A stretch of DNA of 22,494 bases, taken from positions 1 through 22,494 of IMG/VR virus record IMGVR_UViG_3300007725_000030, one strand, 5' to 3'. The DNA is from a virus. Under the pieces are notes generated by a model, which worked only from the letters and a program-made list of their open reading frames with translations, did no database searches and had not been told where the DNA came from. Of the stretch, positions 2,412-20,165 are shown in pieces; the first letter of the stretch is position 1; every line of letters starts with the position of its first letter. The translations under genes and the position numbers were made by a program.

Positions 2412-2482
2412 CACCCTGAGTCGGGTGTGTAATGCTTTTACTTGGTAATTATATCAAGTAATGAGTTAACAAATGTTAACTC
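2412..2482. repeat. Three consecutive inverted repeats between the chaperone gene and nrdB
   Basis: Perfect short stems lie at 2412-2427 (CACCC/GGGTG, 6-nt loop), 2439-2460 (TACTTG/CAAGTA, 10-nt loop) and 2463-2482 (GAGTTAAC/GTTAACTC, 8 bp with a 4-nt loop). The last overlaps the stop codon of the chaperone gene at 2476. None is followed by a clear T-run on either strand. They may stabilise or process the 3' end of the fibre mRNA. They do not fold as a tRNA. Confidence 0.5.
2448..2456 (-). promoter_or_regulatory. Putative extended -10 (sigma70-type) promoter for nrdB-nrdA
   Basis: On the minus strand the sequence reads TGATATAAT, that is a TGn extension plus a perfect TATAAT hexamer at 2448-2453. 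No well-spaced -35 is evident: the nearest match, TTAACA, has a 20-nt spacer. A transcript starting about 7 nt downstream would have a leader of about 90 nt before nrdB. This would fit early host-polymerase expression of nrd genes, in contrast to the late-type boxes of the tail genes. It is an inference from the motif only. Confidence 0.4.
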
Positions 2483-2952
2483 GAGGGTTGAATTGGCATC
2501 GTTAACTGAAACGGGTCAGATGCCTGCTGTGGTAGATCACGCAACGCTTGACGATACGCCATCCATTCTTCTTTATCCGCGCCAGTGTATGACGCAAGTT
2601 CGTAAAAGTCAGTTTGTGCCAATGTCGTGTTACGCCAAAAGCGAATCCTTGACCATTTATTTTTAGCACGAACTTCTGCGACTTCTGAAGGAAGAGCAAC
2701 TAAATATGGAACACGGATCCAGTTTCCATCTACATCCTTTTCAACTCTTGTTCTTATAAAATCAGTAGCTGACTCCTTTATTCCATACTCTTCAAGATTT
2801 GGGAAAGGGAGTTCAACGACATTCAATTTTTCAAGAATTGACGGAGTAAGAATTTTAGGTATTGAAACATTTGAAAAACGTTGACGTAATTCTTGCTCAG
2901 TTAAAATATCTTCTTCTGCGATTGTGTCGTTTTTAATAATCCCGTATTTCAT
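2476..2952 (-). CDS. Tail (fibre) assembly chaperone, Phage_tail_APC-like
   Basis: The 158-residue protein has an N-terminal segment with LTEQELRQRFSNVSIPKILT, which I recognise from fibre-associated proteins. Its C-terminal region has the pattern WSRIRFWRNTTLAQTDFYEL ... EEWMAYRQALRDLPQQ (about residues 99-143), typical of the phage tail assembly chaperone family. It is the last gene of the fibre cluster, 11 bp after the 588-residue fibre gene, which is the usual place for a fibre chaperone. AGAGGATT precedes the ATG. Its likely job is to assist trimerisation or folding of a fibre here, and it may not remain in the virion. A GATAAATA (degenerate late-promoter) sequence lies 88 nt upstream, inside the preceding gene. 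The family assignment is from motif memory. Confidence 0.75.
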   Translation of the reverse strand: MKYGIIKNDTIAEEDILTEQELRQRFSNVSIPKILTPSILEKLNVVELPFPNLEEYGIKESATDFIRTRVEKDVDGNWIRVPYLVALPSEVAEVRAKNKWSRIRFWRNTTLAQTDFYELASYTGADKEEWMAYRQALRDLPQQASDPFQLTMPIQPSS

Positions 2953-2963
2953 TGTAATCCTCT

Positions 2964-4730
2964 TTAGCTAAATACACTGATGATTGTGCTTGATAGTGAA
3001 TCGGCAACTACATCAGCACCTGCTGCTGTTAATATACCATTATTTATCTCTGATGTTGAAGCAAGTGTGCTAATATCTAAACCTTTCAAAGAAATATCTG
3101 GGCTTGCAGATACATAACTATTAATAGCATTATCAATAGTAGGGCTCGAACTATCAGTATTAATAATGATGAATGTTTCTATATCACTAAATACAAGATC
3201 GGTATTTAATTGATTTAATTGAGCTAAGTAATCCGCTTCTGTAACACCAGCAGCTTTATCAGCCTTCGTTAAATTAATGATAATTGCGTGAATTTTTTCA
3301 TCGCCTAATGCTTGTTTCGCAAATAAAATTCGTTCAAACAGTTTATTATTAGTATATTGGAAAGTATCTTCAGAAGTTGGTGTATAACCGTTTGTTGCTG
3401 GTTCTTTTAACCACCATTCTAATCGTGTTCCCGGCACGGACACATTCATAAAGTTCACTGAGCCGAACCAAGACGATTTTTGACGTATGTATTTACCCAT
3501 TACACTATGGAAATTTCCTAATGGTGTCGTCATTGGTACTGCTAAAGGAGTAACGCTTGGAGAAACTGCAACTCTCCAATTTCCATTTGCATCCATATTA
3601 TAGACGTTCGGCGCACCAAAATAGTCATTCGACGGAACAGTATTCGCAGTTAAATCATCACCGATAATAAGAATATTTAGATTTTCGTTAAACCCGTACG
3701 TAGGTGCTAAGAAAGGATTAACGGTAGTGAATGTAGTTTCGAATACAGACGTCTTAATCGTTTGTTGCGAAGTAGTTTGTGTCCAGTCTGTAATATATGA
3801 CGTAGCTTGAGATGTTTGATACGTCGTAGTACCGAGATAAGATGTATCTAATGTTATATCCCACGATGTTGGTGCATTCGTTTCTCTGTCCGTCGTGAAA
3901 TCCCAAAATGATTCGTAATACGTTTTTATACTTGTCGTTTCCTGTTGCAATGAATCTCTAAACGTATCGAAGTCAGTGGTAACTTTGTATGTATACGTAT
4001 CTTCGTAAGGAAGGTAGACATATATACTGCCTGCATTAAGTACGCCTGCATTATTACCTGAACCATAACCCGTACCACTATATGTAGCTCTCCATGTTGG
4101 TTCATTCGCAGTGCCGGTGAATCTAACAATACTGTTTGTATCTACCGTCCAAGTCCCTGAAATCGTTATGCTGCTGTATGCGACAGCCCAAGTTCCGCCG
4201 CCTGCGCCATTACCTAGATCATACGTAATATCCCAACCGCCGTACCATGGTCCGAAAGTCGCGCCATGTACATTGATTGCATTCATTGTCATCGTACCTT
4301 CCGGTAAGAAGTTGCCGGAGGCATCTTTACTTTGTGTGAATGTACCCGTAAAAGAGTCGGCATCGTATGTCTCGCGCGTAGTTGTTGCAGTGTAATCAGT
4401 GTTCCAATATGAAGTAAATGGAACAGAAACTTCTACATAGTAAGGATAATCTGTAAACGCGTCAGTAGTTCTTTGATATTCGGTATCGTAATATGTGTCG
4501 AAAAATGTGGTATTGCCCGTTGTAATCGTATATTCACTAGTCTTATATGTTTCGTGTGAAGTATTCCAATTTGATGAATAATTGGTCACCTCGGCCGTGT
4601 CAAACGACCAATTCGTATCAACGAGCGTTTCGACAGATGTATCAAAAACCTGCGCACCATAAGAGACTACTAAAGGAGTCTTTTTAAATGGCGTTCTTAC
4701 AAAGCCTTTTCCGAATAGATTATTTCTCAT
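2964..4730 (-). CDS. Tail fibre/adhesin with Tyr/Thr-rich repeats and a degenerate SGNH-hydrolase-like C-terminal domain
   Basis: 588 residues, unlike the three preceding fibre proteins at its N-terminus (MRNNLFGKGFVRTPFKKTP). Residues about 28-120 and 245-340 are low-complexity beta-type sequence rich in Thr, Tyr, Trp and Asp, with recurring T-x-aromatic pairs (for example TSYWNTDYTATTTRETYD). Between them is a Gly-rich region (about 125-240). From residue 351 the sequence resembles SGNH/sialate-O-acetylesterase domains: ILIIGDDLTA where GDSxT is expected, VSVPGTRLEWW near block II, INLTKADKAAG where a WxQGESD-type block is expected, and INNGILTAAGADVVADSL where DxxHLTxxG is expected. The catalytic Ser, Glu/Asn, Asp and His are all replaced, so it is probably a binding domain without enzyme activity. 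The ATG overlaps the stop of the upstream fibre gene (ATGA), so translation is likely coupled; AAAGGA lies 6 nt before it. The fibre role is inferred from position and composition. Confidence 0.7.
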   Translation of the reverse strand: MRNNLFGKGFVRTPFKKTPLVVSYGAQVFDTSVETLVDTNWSFDTAEVTNYSSNWNTSHETYKTSEYTITTGNTTFFDTYYDTEYQRTTDAFTDYPYYVEVSVPFTSYWNTDYTATTTRETYDADSFTGTFTQSKDASGNFLPEGTMTMNAINVHGATFGPWYGGWDITYDLGNGAGGGTWAVAYSSITISGTWTVDTNSIVRFTGTANEPTWRATYSGTGYGSGNNAGVLNAGSIYVYLPYEDTYTYKVTTDFDTFRDSLQQETTSIKTYYESFWDFTTDRETNAPTSWDITLDTSYLGTTTYQTSQATSYITDWTQTTSQQTIKTSVFETTFTTVNPFLAPTYGFNENLNILIIGDDLTANTVPSNDYFGAPNVYNMDANGNWRVAVSPSVTPLAVPMTTPLGNFHSVMGKYIRQKSSWFGSVNFMNVSVPGTRLEWWLKEPATNGYTPTSEDTFQYTNNKLFERILFAKQALGDEKIHAIIINLTKADKAAGVTEADYLAQLNQLNTDLVFSDIETFIIINTDSSSPTIDNAINSYVSASPDISLKGLDISTLASTSEINNGILTAAGADVVADSLSSTIISVFS

Positions 4731-5917
4731 CTAAAGTCCTTTCCAATGACCATTCCTTTCCACGTTACACCATTATTTGACGTATAGAAGCCAAGAATAT
4801 CTAAGCCTGTCGACAATTCCGGAGCTATACCGTTATCCCATATAATCGATTCATCAAAAGTGATTAGATAATCTGCACCACCAACAATCTCTAACGTCAT
4901 TGAAACAATCTCTTGACCAGCTGGAACGTTTTCAAATGTAATCGTCAGATCAGAAGTAGGTTCAATATGGAATACATCCGCTTGGCTTAAATCTAAAGCA
5001 CCAGAGGCACTTTCCATATAAATGTTAGAATATAATGCTTTGTCTTCAACGATAGTATTGAATGACATTACTGAAATTACTTGACCGGCCGTAGCGGGAG
5101 TCAATAACGTAATAATATAGCCATTGATGTCGTTTGTATAATCGACATCGCGTACAAGTTTAAGACCATCTAACCATACTGATTCAAAACCGGGCGAGTG
5201 TTTAATTTCAAATGTTTCTTGACCTTCAGTTGCGACAACATCTATTGATGTCGTTAAAATGTTGCTATTAACAGGTAATGCGTTATTATAAAGGATTACA
5301 ACATGTTGACTAGCCTTCAAAGGCTCATTCATTGTAATGCCAGATGCATGAATTACATAGTTATTAATATCATATAACATGCCATCAACGAATACTGACA
5401 CAGTAGTAATTTTTGATGCATCATCGAATACGAATTCGGTTTGACCGTCAGTTGCAAAGAAATCCTTGCGGAAAATGTCAAGGATTGCTGCAGTAGAGCC
5501 ATCACCAACACCTGTAGTGCCTGAGGCGTAAAGTTCGATTAATTCCCAAGACTGCGAACCAGTTTGAGGGAGATTGTCAACGTTATTATTCGTCGTTGAT
5601 TTCCAATTACTGCCGTTATGATTAACATAATCGCCAGCGGCGTAAGTAGTTGTTGAAACCCAAGAGCCTGGGTCATTACCTTTTAGAATTTCTAGAAGAA
5701 TGTGATGATCATCAACTTCACCCTCGTTGAAGATGATTCTCGCAGTCCATTCAGTTAATGCACTGTCTAAATCACTTTCAACTTGAGTGACGTGAACGTC
5801 TAATGCTTCGATATCAGATCTAAGTTGAATAGGAGCCGCGTTTAAATTTTCCGCGGTACCCCTATCACCATTTTCAAGTAACGTTTCTTGAAATTGTTGT
5901 AATGTACTTATCGCCAT
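4727..5917 (-). CDS. Tail fibre protein with carbohydrate-binding-type module and beta-sandwich repeats
   Basis: 396 residues. The N-terminal 45 or so match the two upstream fibres (MAI..., Asn-x-Ala-Pro-Ile-Gln-Leu near residues 26-32), probably a baseplate-docking module. Residues 85-128 have the signature of CBM5/12 chitin-binding-type modules: W86, TYAAGDYVNHNGSNWKSTT, W124. Two related beta units follow (about 153-212 and 227-288), each with (T/E)DGQ/EGQ-T-F, a V-DG or L-DG-L turn and a hydrophobic strand. The last 95 residues (LDLSQADVFHI ... NNGVTWKGMVIGKDF) look like a common fibre-tip fold. All point to a host-surface-binding fibre. TGAGGA is 8 nt before the ATG, and GATAAATA lies 25 nt upstream. 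The module names rest on motif recognition only. Confidence 0.8.
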   Translation of the reverse strand: MAISTLQQFQETLLENGDRGTAENLNAAPIQLRSDIEALDVHVTQVESDLDSALTEWTARIIFNEGEVDDHHILLEILKGNDPGSWVSTTTYAAGDYVNHNGSNWKSTTNNNVDNLPQTGSQSWELIELYASGTTGVGDGSTAAILDIFRKDFFATDGQTEFVFDDASKITTVSVFVDGMLYDINNYVIHASGITMNEPLKASQHVVILYNNALPVNSNILTTSIDVVATEGQETFEIKHSPGFESVWLDGLKLVRDVDYTNDINGYIITLLTPATAGQVISVMSFNTIVEDKALYSNIYMESASGALDLSQADVFHIEPTSDLTITFENVPAGQEIVSMTLEIVGGADYLITFDESIIWDNGIAPELSTGLDILGFYTSNNGVTWKGMVIGKDFR

Positions 5918-5942: not shown

Positions 5943-5950
5943 TATTTATC
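5943..5950 (-). promoter_or_regulatory. Near-consensus late promoter (GATAAATA) for the 396-residue fibre gene
   Basis: It differs from the T4 late box TATAAATA at one base and lies 25 nt before the ATG, the same spacing as the perfect boxes in this cluster. The TAA inside it (5948-5946) is the stop codon of the upstream fibre gene. Confidence 0.5.
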
Positions 5951-7550
5951 CACAGTGATAAGTACATGCAATCATTTTACATTTAACACCATTTACTTCG
6001 AAACAACCATTTTCACCAATAGTTTCGTTACCCCATACTACATCTTCCAATGCTTTAGCGACTGTGTAATTTGCTAAAAATTCAGAAGTTTGCTTCATAC
6101 CTTTACCTGGAGTATTGGAAGAAGTGATGTAGTCACCATTTTCAATGTCGCCATTTTCTTCACAAACATTGATACCACCTTCTCCTAATGCATTAATATG
6201 AACGTTTTCGATTCCATTATGTTCTGATACAAAGTTTTCGCCATCAGCATTAAGCAATGGACTGCCGTTTTCATCTAAAGCATTTAAATTTTTAAAGCAG
6301 AGAGCCATTTTTTCTACTGATTCAAATGGATTAATTTCTGAAATTACACCAACGACACGTTTATCATTTGCAGACGCAGATGTTTCAACTACAGGAATGC
6401 TATCTGTGACATTTAAAAGTACGCCTGTTTTATTAGATACAATATCACCGATTTGCATGCCAGATGTAGAGGCCGTTAGAGCATAGTGCAATCCGGTAAA
6501 TGGCGCGTAGCCATTCTCAGAAGTAACAACTGCTCCAGCGAAATATGCCGCATGATTTTTTGTACCAATACGTCCATATGTTGTGAAAGATGTGCCGTTT
6601 GTTCCTGCGGCATATACACCGAATATACCACCTTCTACTTGAGCTTTGGTCGATCCAATTACGCCGTTGCCTTGGCTAGCGTTAGTGTAAGCAGTTAATG
6701 CGTGACCAAATCCACTCGTGGCAGTATTATTGACGTTCAAAAGGTGAGCAGAAGAAGTAGAACCTTGCAATCTATAAAGAGCTGCACCACCAAGACTCCA
6801 AGATGCACTACTGTATGAATCTGGAAGATAATCGGTAGAGGTAGGTAAACTAGAAATAGTTGCATCTAATGAGTTAAACTTTTGCTGAATGTTTGTAGTA
6901 CATCCGTTCAACTGTCCAAGTTCAGAACTATCAATGTTTGAATTGTAAACCGTATCCAACCAGTTGATTCTTATTGCCGATGTAGTAATACCCAAATCAG
7001 CCAATGACGTGATTCCACCTCCACTTGAAAGTGTAGAAATAATACCATCAAACTCATCAATCTTACTTTGTACATTATCTGTTAGACCGTACAATTTAGA
7101 AATTTCGTCTGGACCAATAGCAGAGTTGAATGCGCTGTATAATGAAGCCGCCCAGTCTAATTGTGTTTCATCATAGGCAGGGTCTAAACCTAGATACTGC
7201 CAGTTAAGAGTTCCAGATAATTCACCAGCTACTGCGTCGTTGATCTGAGTTTGAATATCAGAAGTTACATTCGCCAAGAACGGTAATTTTTCGTGATATG
7301 TTGCTAAATTAACCATTGAATCTGGAACTATGGCGGCCCCGGCCAATGTGTTAATTTCTTCAGCAGTTGCGTTTATACCGAATGTTTCAAGAGAAAGTGC
7401 ACCATCTTCACCGCCTAAACCATCTGTGATAAGCTGGTCAATTTCAGTTTTAAGTTGTATAGCCGCTCTATTCAGGTTATCTTCATTGATAAACTCACCA
7501 TTTTTGATGATGTAGTTATCAATAAAGTTTTGTTTGCTTATAATTGCCAT
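5946..7550 (-). CDS. Tail fibre protein with NIQ-type repeats and CTYHCG C-terminal domain
   Basis: 534 residues, paralogous to the neighbouring 564-residue fibre. Domains: N-terminal module shared by three fibres (1-45); two or three shaft repeats with a core like ELGQLNGCTTNIQQKF (about 50-235); a beta-rich, Gly/Ala/Thr-rich middle (about 245-345); and a C-terminal domain (351-534) with FTGLHY, GDIV, INALGEGGINVCEENG, NGDYITSSNTPGKGMKQ and the terminal CKMIACTYHCG. I recall this terminal domain from structural proteins of marine phages and algal viruses, sometimes annotated as a peptidase-G2/intramolecular-chaperone domain. Whether it is cleaved cannot be judged here. AAGGT lies before the ATG, and a perfect late box lies 22 nt upstream. 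Fibre role is inferred from architecture and position. Confidence 0.8.
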   Translation of the reverse strand: MAIISKQNFIDNYIIKNGEFINEDNLNRAAIQLKTEIDQLITDGLGGEDGALSLETFGINATAEEINTLAGAAIVPDSMVNLATYHEKLPFLANVTSDIQTQINDAVAGELSGTLNWQYLGLDPAYDETQLDWAASLYSAFNSAIGPDEISKLYGLTDNVQSKIDEFDGIISTLSSGGGITSLADLGITTSAIRINWLDTVYNSNIDSSELGQLNGCTTNIQQKFNSLDATISSLPTSTDYLPDSYSSASWSLGGAALYRLQGSTSSAHLLNVNNTATSGFGHALTAYTNASQGNGVIGSTKAQVEGGIFGVYAAGTNGTSFTTYGRIGTKNHAAYFAGAVVTSENGYAPFTGLHYALTASTSGMQIGDIVSNKTGVLLNVTDSIPVVETSASANDKRVVGVISEINPFESVEKMALCFKNLNALDENGSPLLNADGENFVSEHNGIENVHINALGEGGINVCEENGDIENGDYITSSNTPGKGMKQTSEFLANYTVAKALEDVVWGNETIGENGCFEVNGVKCKMIACTYHCG

Positions 7551-7587: not shown

Positions 7588-9282
7588 TTAACCGCAATGG
7601 TATGTGCATGAAATCATCTTGCATTTAACACCATCAACCTCAAAACATCCATTTTCACCAACGGTTTCAGTTGTCCAATCTACATTAGTAGACGATTTGG
7701 CAACAGTAAAGTTAGCTAGGTAATCTTCTGTTTGTTTCATACCTTTGCCAGCTACGTTTGATGTACAAATAAAATCACCAATTTCGATATTACCGTTTTC
7801 TTCACAGACGTTGATCATACCTTCACCTATAGCATTGACACCTTTAGCCGCATAGTTAGATGAGGTAAGAGAATCTCTAAGTGACAACCACTCTCCACGA
7901 AGTTTGCGGGCGGCTGGGGTCGATGGGTGTACTTCTACAGTTGTATCTTCTTCAGTTAATTCAGCATATTGATTAAGAAATTCATCAATATCGGTTTTAA
8001 CATCGCCGTTATAAACACCGTAAGATGCTTTTGATTTAGCAACAGAAGATTTAACTACGTAAGGAATAGAGTTATTAACACCTAATCCAATAGTTTCGGT
8101 AATGCACACAATGTCTCCGACGTCAACAGATTCATTTGAAAACGTGTAGTGAGATCCAGTGAAAGGATATGTAGAACCGCCTAAGTAACTCTGTGAGTTT
8201 GTGTAGAAGCCGTATACTCCCTCACCTTGAACGCCTACCCATCCCTCGGATGAACCTACAACACCTGCGGCACCTACGCTTGAGCCTGACGCTGCTGATG
8301 CGATACCCGGTTGATTAGACTTAGTGACACCAACCGCAATACCTATTGAAGAAGCTGATTTTACATACATACCCGCTGTGTACGAGGTTCCTGAAGATTG
8401 GTTAATACCAAACAAACCTCTCCACTGCCCTGAGGATGAGTAACTGGTACCTGGCCAACTAACGCCTGTTGCACCACCAAGTTCAATTGTTCCGCCAACG
8501 TTTCCAGAAACATAGTTGAGACCTTCAGTAATATCAGTAAAGTTTACAGTAGAAGATCCAGAAATTGAATTAATAGTAGTGTCTATTTCATCAAACTTAG
8601 CCTGAACGTTTGTAGTAAGACCGTTAATATGCTGTAGTTCAGTTGCCTGAATACGAGAATCATATAGATCACCAATCCAGTTTAACTGAATTGCATTCAC
8701 ATTTGTTAAATCGGTGATACTAGACACGGTAATTGCAGCGCCACCAGTTGAAATGTTAGTAATAGCGGTATTAATCGTATTTAACTGCGATTGGATATTG
8801 CCAGACAAGCCATTCAAATAAGATATTTCAGTACCGTCTACATTAGAACGGTTAAAGTCGTTTGCGATAATTGAAAGCCAGTTAATTTGAGCAGCAGTTG
8901 CGGTTAAACCAAGAGAAGCCAATGTAACTGCATCACCGCCAACAGCGTTAGACAACGTATTAATCTGATTTTGAATATCAGAAGTTACATTAGCTAAGAA
9001 CGGAATTTTAGTCCTATATGTTGGCAATAGGTTCAAATCTGAAGTAGAACCTGTAAATCCGCTTAGAGTATCAACTTCTGCAGCAGTTGCTGTAACATCA
9101 GTCAAATCAGCAAATGTCGATACGCCACCGCCCGAAATAACAACATTCTGTAATTCGTCTTTTAATTCGTTTATTTCTGTTTTTAGTTGAGCAGGTGCTC
9201 TATTAATCGTTGTTTCATTTGCAATCTCACCGTTTTTCACTAGATAAGTTGATGCAAATTCTGTCGTCGTAGTAATTGCCAT
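7588..9282 (-). CDS. Tail fibre protein, paralogue of the 534-residue fibre, with CTYHCG C-terminal domain
   Basis: 564 residues. The N-terminal module (1-45) resembles the next two fibres. The shaft (about 55-245) has at least three repeats of a unit such as TATAAQINWL ... TEISYLNGLSGNIQSQL, the repeat seen in many marine phage fibres with E-L-x-x-L-N/D-G-x-T. A Gly/Ser-rich beta region follows (about 255-370). The C-terminal domain (374-564) matches the neighbour from FTGSHY to CKMISCTYHCG but carries a different insert of about 60 residues (about 425-482, Glu/Asp-rich then HPSTPAARKLRGEW). AAGGAT lies 9 nt before the ATG, and a perfect late box lies 25 nt upstream. The two fibres may form different parts of one fibre or alternative receptor-binding proteins. 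Confidence 0.8.
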   Translation of the reverse strand: MAITTTTEFASTYLVKNGEIANETTINRAPAQLKTEINELKDELQNVVISGGGVSTFADLTDVTATAAEVDTLSGFTGSTSDLNLLPTYRTKIPFLANVTSDIQNQINTLSNAVGGDAVTLASLGLTATAAQINWLSIIANDFNRSNVDGTEISYLNGLSGNIQSQLNTINTAITNISTGGAAITVSSITDLTNVNAIQLNWIGDLYDSRIQATELQHINGLTTNVQAKFDEIDTTINSISGSSTVNFTDITEGLNYVSGNVGGTIELGGATGVSWPGTSYSSSGQWRGLFGINQSSGTSYTAGMYVKSASSIGIAVGVTKSNQPGIASAASGSSVGAAGVVGSSEGWVGVQGEGVYGFYTNSQSYLGGSTYPFTGSHYTFSNESVDVGDIVCITETIGLGVNNSIPYVVKSSVAKSKASYGVYNGDVKTDIDEFLNQYAELTEEDTTVEVHPSTPAARKLRGEWLSLRDSLTSSNYAAKGVNAIGEGMINVCEENGNIEIGDFICTSNVAGKGMKQTEDYLANFTVAKSSTNVDWTTETVGENGCFEVDGVKCKMISCTYHCG

Positions 9283-17849: not shown

Positions 17850-20165
17850 TTATGAGAACATGCTTAACAATCGTTCTTCATTTTGTGATTCAGCGATTGT
17901 GCTATTATTGTTATTTATACCCACCGCAACCGTTGGTTGGGCAGTTACCCGAGACGCAGTATCATATGTTTTTGTATTTGATACTAGTGATTGTGAATTA
18001 GCCATTGCAGTCTGTTCTTTAATATCTTTATTGACAAGTGCTGGGGCAACCGCGCTTGAACTTTCAGAAGTTGATTGTGTAGTTTCTTCAGAAGTTGCTG
18101 CTACTTCTGAAATTGGTCTTACACTGTAAGTGCCGGTTTTTCGTGTTTCAGCGATACCCGCTGTGTATATGATAGATGCATTATTAAGTGCTCTACCTTT
18201 AGTTTGTTTTGCGTATAAACTTCCTTGAATATTATTTGCAACAGTGACATAGTCTTTCTCTTCCAATGCTGCCATTGTGCTTGGCCATTTTTTATACCAA
18301 GTAGGACCCATATTATATGTCATATCAATTAATACTGCTTGAATTTCTTTAGGATGTTGTGAAAAGCTTGGAATTTTCTCAGCGGCTTTAACATGTTCAA
18401 TATAATCCTGTGCAAATAACGCATCAGCTTGTTCTTTAGTGATACCATTCATTAAATGTTTTTCATCTGGAAGTATTAAATGGCCGTATCCAATTGTTGG
18501 ATAACCGAGTGAATCATTATACGGTTGTAAACGCAAACCTTCATTTTTCTTAATGTATTCGACTAAAGAATCTCCGTTAAATCCATTTACACCATTAAAT
18601 GTAGGCATACTGCCATTTATGCCATTTGTACCATTTGTACCATTTATGCCATTTGTACCATTTATGCCATTTACAGGTTTTGCTGCTGTTGGATTAGATG
18701 TATTAGATTTTATTTGTGTTTTAAGTTCCTGTTGTTTAATCTTAACAGTTTCCATCCTTACAGCAAGTTCAGTAATAACAGAACTTTTTTCGTTAATGAT
18801 ATTAAGGAATTGCTGCATTGATTTTTCGTTACCAGATTCTTTAGCCAAATCATATTGTTTTTGCATTTGTTTAATAACTTCGATGTTAGCTTTCATCGCT
18901 TCCGTAATTTCATCTGCCTCATAATTGGCTTGTTTAAGATCTTGCTCTGCCTTTTCTTTCTTAGCTCTTTCTTCAACTGTTCCAAATGCAGCATCTCGTT
19001 GGATTGCCAAATCTAACATCTCTTTCATTCTTTCGAGATCTCTTTGTCTCCAATCATCAATATCAATGATTTTTTGTATGTCTTCTGGTGAAAGTTGCGA
19101 TAATTGTGCCCAATCTTCTACTTCTGACATACCAAACGTATCGTGATCTATGATACCGAGGTTTTCAAATTTTTCAATATCCGTATTATTAGTTAAATTT
19201 CGAAGTCCTTTTGCTGTTTCGCCACCATCAACTAAACCAAACGTTAGACCGCTTACGACCCCGCCCGCTCCAGCCGCGAACTTATCTGCTAGTGTTAAAT
19301 CTTTTTCGTCAATGCCTAACATTTCTCCGGCGTTATTAAAACCCTGGTATGCGTCATAAGCCGCAAATCCAAGAGACGCACCTATAGCGGCAATTTGACC
19401 AACAACTGGAATTCCGGCCAACGCTAATGCAGCACCTCTTTTACCAGCACCTAGAGCAGCTTTCTTTGCCACTGTTGCACCTGCATTAGTTGCAAGTTTT
19501 TTTGTACCTGCCTCAGCCGCTTCCTTAGCGGCTTTCTTAGATGCTTCTTTGGCAGCTTTTTCGGATGCTTCCTTAGCTGCTTTTTCTGCGGCCTTACGTT
19601 GCGCTGCCTTAGCTGCACGCTCAGCCTTTAATTTTTTAGCTTTCGCATCACGCTTAGCTTGTTCTGCTGCAGATCGTTGATCTAACGGAACACGTTTAGG
19701 CGTAGTCTTAGGTTTTGGTGTTCTTTTTGTACCTTTGTCTGATCTTATTTTGCGTTTTTTGACTAAATCGGTAGGATCTAAACCAAAATCAAAACCATTT
19801 GAAGTAACGGGCTTTTCTTTCGTTGTTTCTTGTTCAGATACTATTTTAAGAGAACCTTTACCATTACTTCTCTCGGGCATACGTATCTTAGTATCTTGTT
19901 CGTCATACATCGCCTCATAAATGTCTTTAAGAACACCTAAAATTTTCTGATTAACCTTAAGAATTTTTTCGGTGTAAGGACTTGGTTTAGACTTCTCAGC
20001 GACACCCTTTGATTGATTCTCAACAAGTTTCTGGATTTGCTCAGCCGCAACATCTTCTCCAGTTTTTTCCATATACTGGACTAATTTTTCATTAACTTCT
20101 TGAATTTTAGTGTCAGTTGCAGTATCGTAATTTATTTTTTCATTAAATTTGTCGTTTTGCTTCAT
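17850..20165 (-). CDS. Tape-measure/hub protein with C-terminal T4-type lysozyme (GH24) domain
   Basis: 771 residues. The N-terminal part is helical (1-100), followed by a basic stretch and an Ala/Lys/Glu coiled-coil-like region (164-240), a hydrophobic segment (about 241-275, ALALAGIPVVGQIAAIGASL), and further charged helices to about 485. A Gly-x-Asn repeat linker (about 499-530) leads into a lysozyme domain (about 533-680): NEGLRLQPYNDSLGYPTIGY gives Glu542, Asp551 and Thr557, with the same spacing (9 and 6) as catalytic Glu11, Asp20 and Thr26 of T4 lysozyme. A Ser/Thr-rich tail follows. Its place before the gp48/54-like gene matches T4 gene 29, the tail-length ruler, so it probably sets tail length and, once ejected, cuts peptidoglycan. 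The ATG overlaps the previous stop (ATGA). The lysozyme call is firm; the tape-measure call rests on length, composition and position. Confidence 0.85.
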   Translation of the reverse strand: MKQNDKFNEKINYDTATDTKIQEVNEKLVQYMEKTGEDVAAEQIQKLVENQSKGVAEKSKPSPYTEKILKVNQKILGVLKDIYEAMYDEQDTKIRMPERSNGKGSLKIVSEQETTKEKPVTSNGFDFGLDPTDLVKKRKIRSDKGTKRTPKPKTTPKRVPLDQRSAAEQAKRDAKAKKLKAERAAKAAQRKAAEKAAKEASEKAAKEASKKAAKEAAEAGTKKLATNAGATVAKKAALGAGKRGAALALAGIPVVGQIAAIGASLGFAAYDAYQGFNNAGEMLGIDEKDLTLADKFAAGAGGVVSGLTFGLVDGGETAKGLRNLTNNTDIEKFENLGIIDHDTFGMSEVEDWAQLSQLSPEDIQKIIDIDDWRQRDLERMKEMLDLAIQRDAAFGTVEERAKKEKAEQDLKQANYEADEITEAMKANIEVIKQMQKQYDLAKESGNEKSMQQFLNIINEKSSVITELAVRMETVKIKQQELKTQIKSNTSNPTAAKPVNGINGTNGINGTNGTNGINGSMPTFNGVNGFNGDSLVEYIKKNEGLRLQPYNDSLGYPTIGYGHLILPDEKHLMNGITKEQADALFAQDYIEHVKAAEKIPSFSQHPKEIQAVLIDMTYNMGPTWYKKWPSTMAALEEKDYVTVANNIQGSLYAKQTKGRALNNASIIYTAGIAETRKTGTYSVRPISEVAATSEETTQSTSESSSAVAPALVNKDIKEQTAMANSQSLVSNTKTYDTASRVTAQPTVAVGINNNNSTIAESQNEERLLSMFS
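17912..17919 (-). promoter_or_regulatory. T4-type late promoter sequence inside the tape-measure gene
   Basis: A perfect TATAAATA on the minus strand, within the last codons of the 771-residue gene and 72 nt before the gp48/54-like ATG at 17839. Spacing is longer than for the other boxes and the sequence is coding, so function is less certain; T4 does use intragenic late promoters. Confidence 0.5.
18613..18673. repeat. 9-bp tandem repeat encoding Gly-(Ile/Thr)-Asn triplets
   Basis: Six full copies and one partial copy of CCATTTATG or CCATTTGTA run head to tail. On the coding (minus) strand they read GIN or GTN triplets, forming the linker between the coiled-coil part and the lysozyme domain of the 771-residue protein. 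Copy number could change by slippage without breaking the frame. Confidence 0.9.

Follow-up and report, generated by a model that had tools for sequence, protein, structure and literature searches.

A tail fibre of a marine T4-like phage ends in a diverged SASA-type SGNH domain with a replaced active site, a probable pseudo-esterase binding tip

The window analysed here is a stretch of viral DNA of 22,494 nt, on the minus strand of which an open reading frame (2964..4730) encodes a 588-aa tail fibre protein, intact and without stop or frameshift. Directly downstream, also on the minus strand (2476..2952), lies the gene of a 158-aa tail fibre assembly chaperone, recognized by Pfam Phage_tail_APC (E 2e-16) and by a PHROG for tail fibre assembly, and this virion gene context, with baseplate and fibre genes around and the chaperone after, is that of a phage tail fibre or receptor-binding protein. 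The 22.5 kb fragment holds T4-like baseplate genes (gp25-like, gp6-like, gp5 OB domain and PAAR), fibres and ribonucleotide reductase, and its source virus is a marine T4-like phage. The nearest named phages are the Vibrio phages Va1, phiKT1024 and SRILMA, with about 42% amino-acid identity in gp6 and about 74% nucleotide identity in the reductase genes only. Neither the baseplate (gp6) relatives (L011-L023) nor these Vibrio phages carry the SASA domain described below.

Other fibre genes are found within the window at 4727-5917, 5946-7550 and 7588-9282. The first (minus strand) encodes a fibre-like protein with a weak match to CBM5/12, a chitin-binding type (E 2.2e-4, under the cut-off), and is possibly a second receptor-binding element. 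The latter two (minus strand) are adjoining paralogous fibre proteins sharing 71% identity over 83 aa in their C-terminal module, and their N-termini are alike and their middles unlike, which suggests duplication with domain swapping. Moreover, a separate 771-aa baseplate/hub-region protein (17850-20165, minus strand) carries a lysozyme domain of phage type (PF00959, E 5.5e-14) beside an NGINGTNG-like repeat, while in T4 the lysozyme is within gp5; the gp5-like OB protein of this phage (14206-15324, minus strand) has no lysozyme domain.

The fibre itself can be divided into two parts. Residues 1-339 (3714..4730, minus strand) match no Pfam or PHROG family and contain Thr-rich repeats recognized by eye, such as T..TNW and T..T..Y, which lie on both sides of some 120 aa rich in Gly and Thr. 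Residues 340-588 (2967..3713, minus strand) form a C-terminal SASA/SGNH-fold domain, with a Rossmann-like core beginning at about residue 349. Three further IMG/VR contigs (L001-L003) carry a fibre that is 100% identical over their overlap, so that all four contigs have the same sequence and no sequence variants. A sequencing error behind the unusual residues of this domain is therefore unlikely, and was rejected also because it would take many base changes to turn these codons into catalytic ones.

Homology of the C-terminal domain was established through viral relatives retrieved with a DNA pattern of block II, which leaves the catalytic residues unconstrained. This pattern retrieved intact viral SASA proteins, including one of the same subfamily, the 541-aa fibre L055 (with its copy L050), and a further scan added L062, a 2116-aa repeat protein. 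The domain shares 28% identity with L055 over 244 aa (BLASTP 6e-19 for one comparison, 70 bits) and 33% with L062 over 153 residues (BLASTP, 68 bits). A profile of just two close relatives detects it at E 2.9e-22 and one of fourteen relatives, again built without it, at 3.7e-13, while none of 5000 composition-matched shuffles matched. When this domain is added to the set, the resulting profile retrieves from the PDB 1ZMB, 2APJ and a sialate O-acetylesterase. By Pfam, L055 (36.2 bits) and L062 (42.6 bits) both exceed the SASA gathering cut-off of 24.8, whereas the fibre domain scores 14.6 bits (E 0.025) and so does not reach PF03629 membership by itself. Nevertheless, its place in the SGNH superfamily is settled by the BLASTP and profile matches with L055 and L062, whose active sites are intact, and residues ~351-588 are a diverged SASA (PF03629, CE6-like) SGNH domain. 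Subfamily features away from the active site are retained, such as NVSVxGT and NNKLxER; indeed, 96 columns are identical in L055 and L062, and the domain keeps 39 of these, NV, V, GT, W and NNKL-ER among them.

Other searches returned little, and beyond the identical contigs no close homologue of the domain came to light. A tblastn search of 50,697 phage records for relatives gave none, exact-peptide scans gave the identical contigs only and nothing in bacterial and archaeal genomes, and a block I pattern (IIGDDLTA) matched the same virus and otherwise by chance, yielding no further dead relative. A search with G7C gp63.1 returned mainly N-terminal fibre modules. Matches to a polyphosphate kinase (E 0.17, phmmer of the domain against the PDB) and to a vacuolar saporin were dismissed as chance.

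The fold was predicted with AlphaFold2 from an eight-sequence alignment (A9), giving a model with pLDDT 71.3 and pTM 0.75; since the alignment held SGNH proteins, this model depends on the homology, and the sequence statistics are independent of it. A single-sequence model (pLDDT 37) was set aside. The best solved match in Foldseek was 2APJ (E 4.3e-5), and G7C gp63.1 (4QNL) matched at E 2.1e-3. Structural alignment with 2APJ gave Z 16.4 and an rmsd of 2.8 A over 187 residues, followed by the tailspike of cyanopodophage Pan3 (9vyh; Z 15.6 over 217 residues), 1ZMB (Z 14.9) and TesA (Z 14.2), and among the named viral matches SGNH fibres, tail proteins and esterases prevailed. The model thus assigns the domain to the flavodoxin-like alpha/beta SGNH fold. 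A sequence-only reading had proposed SGNH descent for residues ~351-588, to be checked by structure prediction and superposition; profiles and predicted structure bear it out, and the opposite outcome, an unrelated fold, was not what the prediction gave.

What the domain has lost is its active site. In alignment to intact relatives, GQS becomes GDD, HIGESD becomes NLTKAD and DxxH becomes NxxI, the motifs NILIIGDD, VPGTRLEWW and NNGILTAAG starting at residues 352, 432 and 563, respectively. In block I, Asp359 (3654..3656, minus strand) takes the place of the nucleophile Ser, which every relative covered there has. The register here comes from an alignment selected out of several MAFFT runs: A9 and A4 align Asp359 with Ser while A6, A7 and A8 shift the gap, and in all of them the domain lacks the Ser. 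The QGE block is occupied by Asn486-Leu487-Thr488-Lys489 (3264..3275, minus strand), where all nine representatives have G-E at 488-489, though Asp491, just after the lost GE, is retained. Asn563 (3042..3044, minus strand) replaces the catalytic Asp and Ile566 (3033..3035, minus strand) the catalytic His, each of which is present in 7/7 representatives covered. Wherever covered, the catalytic residues are kept in all 14 relatives examined. On the contrary, the block II glycine, Gly434 (3429..3431, minus strand), is kept, preceded by Pro433 where relatives mostly have Gly. With respect to the hallmarks of an SGNH enzyme, the domain has neither the Ser nor the Asp/His pair, nor an Asn/QGE-type block III (NLTK for HIGE/QGE), and it has the oxyanion-hole Gly of block II. 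The open reading frame, the motifs and the replaced residues (Asp359, Asn486 to Lys489, Asn563 and Ile566) all lie where the sequence-only reading had put them, while its claim that every catalytic residue was lost goes slightly too far, being right for the QGE block and for Ser, Asp and His of the triad but not for Gly434.

The changes are concentrated. Of the 27 columns that the domain covers and in which at least 75% of representative relatives agree, those of the active site (358, 359, 360, 433, 434, 488, 489, 563 and 566) are changed in eight cases out of nine, and the remaining conserved columns in 3/18 (496, 533 and 537); the one-sided exact p is about 6e-4, with the active-site set taken from the SGNH blocks and the columns counted after the alignment had been seen. 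This pattern bears on the idea that the domain is decaying, in which a different receptor-binding protein would serve the phage, and drift would have taken the catalytic residues before the domain is removed. The four identical contigs leave that idea some room, as they offer no variants by which selection could be gauged, but loss mostly confined to the active site with the structural columns kept, in a frame without stop or frameshift and unchanged in three other assemblies, makes decay most improbable.

It could also be speculated that the domain is still an enzyme, catalyzing hydrolysis or another reaction through other residues such as Asp358/Asp359 or Lys489. The pocket positions are indeed polar (D358, D359, N486, T488, K489 and N563), and the PDB entry 9h4u is, by its title, a deacetylase whose triad is a variant ("diluted") one. 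However, Ser, the G-E of the QGE block, Asp and His are all replaced, and no suitably placed His or Cys is at hand. The only His residues of the domain are 408 and 481, with none at the DxxH site or on its C-terminal side and nothing past 481, and Cys is absent altogether. A conventional triad at shifted positions, which was looked for in the sequence and not found, is therefore unlikely. We know of no SGNH enzyme that uses Asp as nucleophile, and given that the proposal has no positive support, catalysis by other residues appears very unlikely. No CE6 acetylesterase activity is predicted from the sequence, and the replaced residues lend good support to the predicted lack of esterase activity.

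Fibre tips with an SGNH domain are known from other phages, and influenza haemagglutinin is a known case of a viral attachment protein with a dead esterase domain. In phage G7C, the distal SGNH domain of gp63.1 binds a surface polysaccharide and deacetylates it, and the SGNH domains of two Klebsiella prophage fibres are active esterases (PMC13123978). What they have in common with the present fibre is that a tail fibre or spike carries the SGNH domain, directed (here presumably) at the receptor, but they are active enzymes, and gp63.1 is of GDSL-type and not SASA-type sequence. The Pan3 tailspike is likewise from an aquatic phage and similar in predicted fold, with only 15% identity. The SASA/CE6-like hydrolases (PF03629), such as At4g34215 (2APJ) and the Clostridium protein 1ZMB, resemble the domain in predicted fold, block order, block II (NVxVxGT) and the positions of loops and helices, whereas in profile alignment 2APJ has GQS, QGESD and DNLH against GDD, NLTKAD and NNGI in the fibre. 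The closest comparison is with L055 and L062, which belong to the same subfamily, share the (Y)xNNKLxER segment and 27-28% identity, and in L055 also the C-terminal position; they differ in having intact catalytic residues and other N-terminal scaffolds, and the gene neighbours of L055 are clearly different. The L055 fibre adjoins a phage tail fibre whose C-terminus appears to be of S74 type, and the L062 domain sits inside a large repeat protein, and such different scaffolds suggest that the SASA domain moves as a module.

Because the chemistry is lost while the fold and the distal position are retained, conversion to a binding tip is the best explanation, and we consider it probable, at roughly two chances in three, that the fibre ends in a pseudo-esterase serving as a non-destructive host-binding tip, plausibly for a glycan that may be O-acetylated. 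The predicted SASA (CE6-like) SGNH fold and the block II loop have been retained while the nucleophile, QGE block and Asp/His pair were replaced, and a surface ligand would be held, without hydrolysis, in the former substrate cleft or at its rim. Receptor or glycan binding by the domain is what we infer from this arrangement; relatives on other fibre scaffolds probably have other ligands. Alternatively, the dead domain may be only a rigid spacer or a folding/trimerization cap, with binding left to another part or another fibre, as several other fibre genes lie in the window, one with the sub-threshold CBM5/12-like match. In influenza haemagglutinin, too, sialic acid is bound by a part other than the vestigial esterase domain. 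That domain, as compared with the HEF/HE esterase, is esterase-derived and inactive within a viral attachment protein, as here, but it belongs to a eukaryotic virus and an unrelated protein context with a separate receptor-binding domain, so that it serves as an analogy only. Against the spacer or cap stands the location of this domain at the distal, C-terminal end of the fibre, the place at which SGNH domains of phages usually touch the receptor, and we regard such a role as unlikely.

The pseudo-esterase tip can tentatively be taken further, to an adhesin born of a receptor-modifying esterase that recognizes an acetylated surface glycan and leaves the acetyl group on. Such an adhesin would be the phage equivalent of the vestigial esterase in influenza haemagglutinin, and might represent an unrecognized class of pseudo-esterase fibre tips. 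None of the papers searched reports an inactive or triad-less SGNH domain on a natural phage fibre, although this says little about whether such a report exists. Tips of the SGNH kind tend to be annotated as deacetylases and assumed to act as such, and a tip with the fold but without the chemistry would mean that recognition can be uncoupled from hydrolysis in phage adsorption. Fold-based annotation would then overstate enzyme activity, and the domain is possibly a ready-made lectin. Moreover, the dead domain and the intact L055 make a direct pair for asking whether attachment needs catalysis.

The searches also brought up a separate viral clade (L034, L041, L045, L048 and L054), in which a WWQSN-type SASA domain with intact Ser and DGTH is followed by PKD-like repeats. 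A protein of Alteromonas phage PT11-V22 looks related to this clade.
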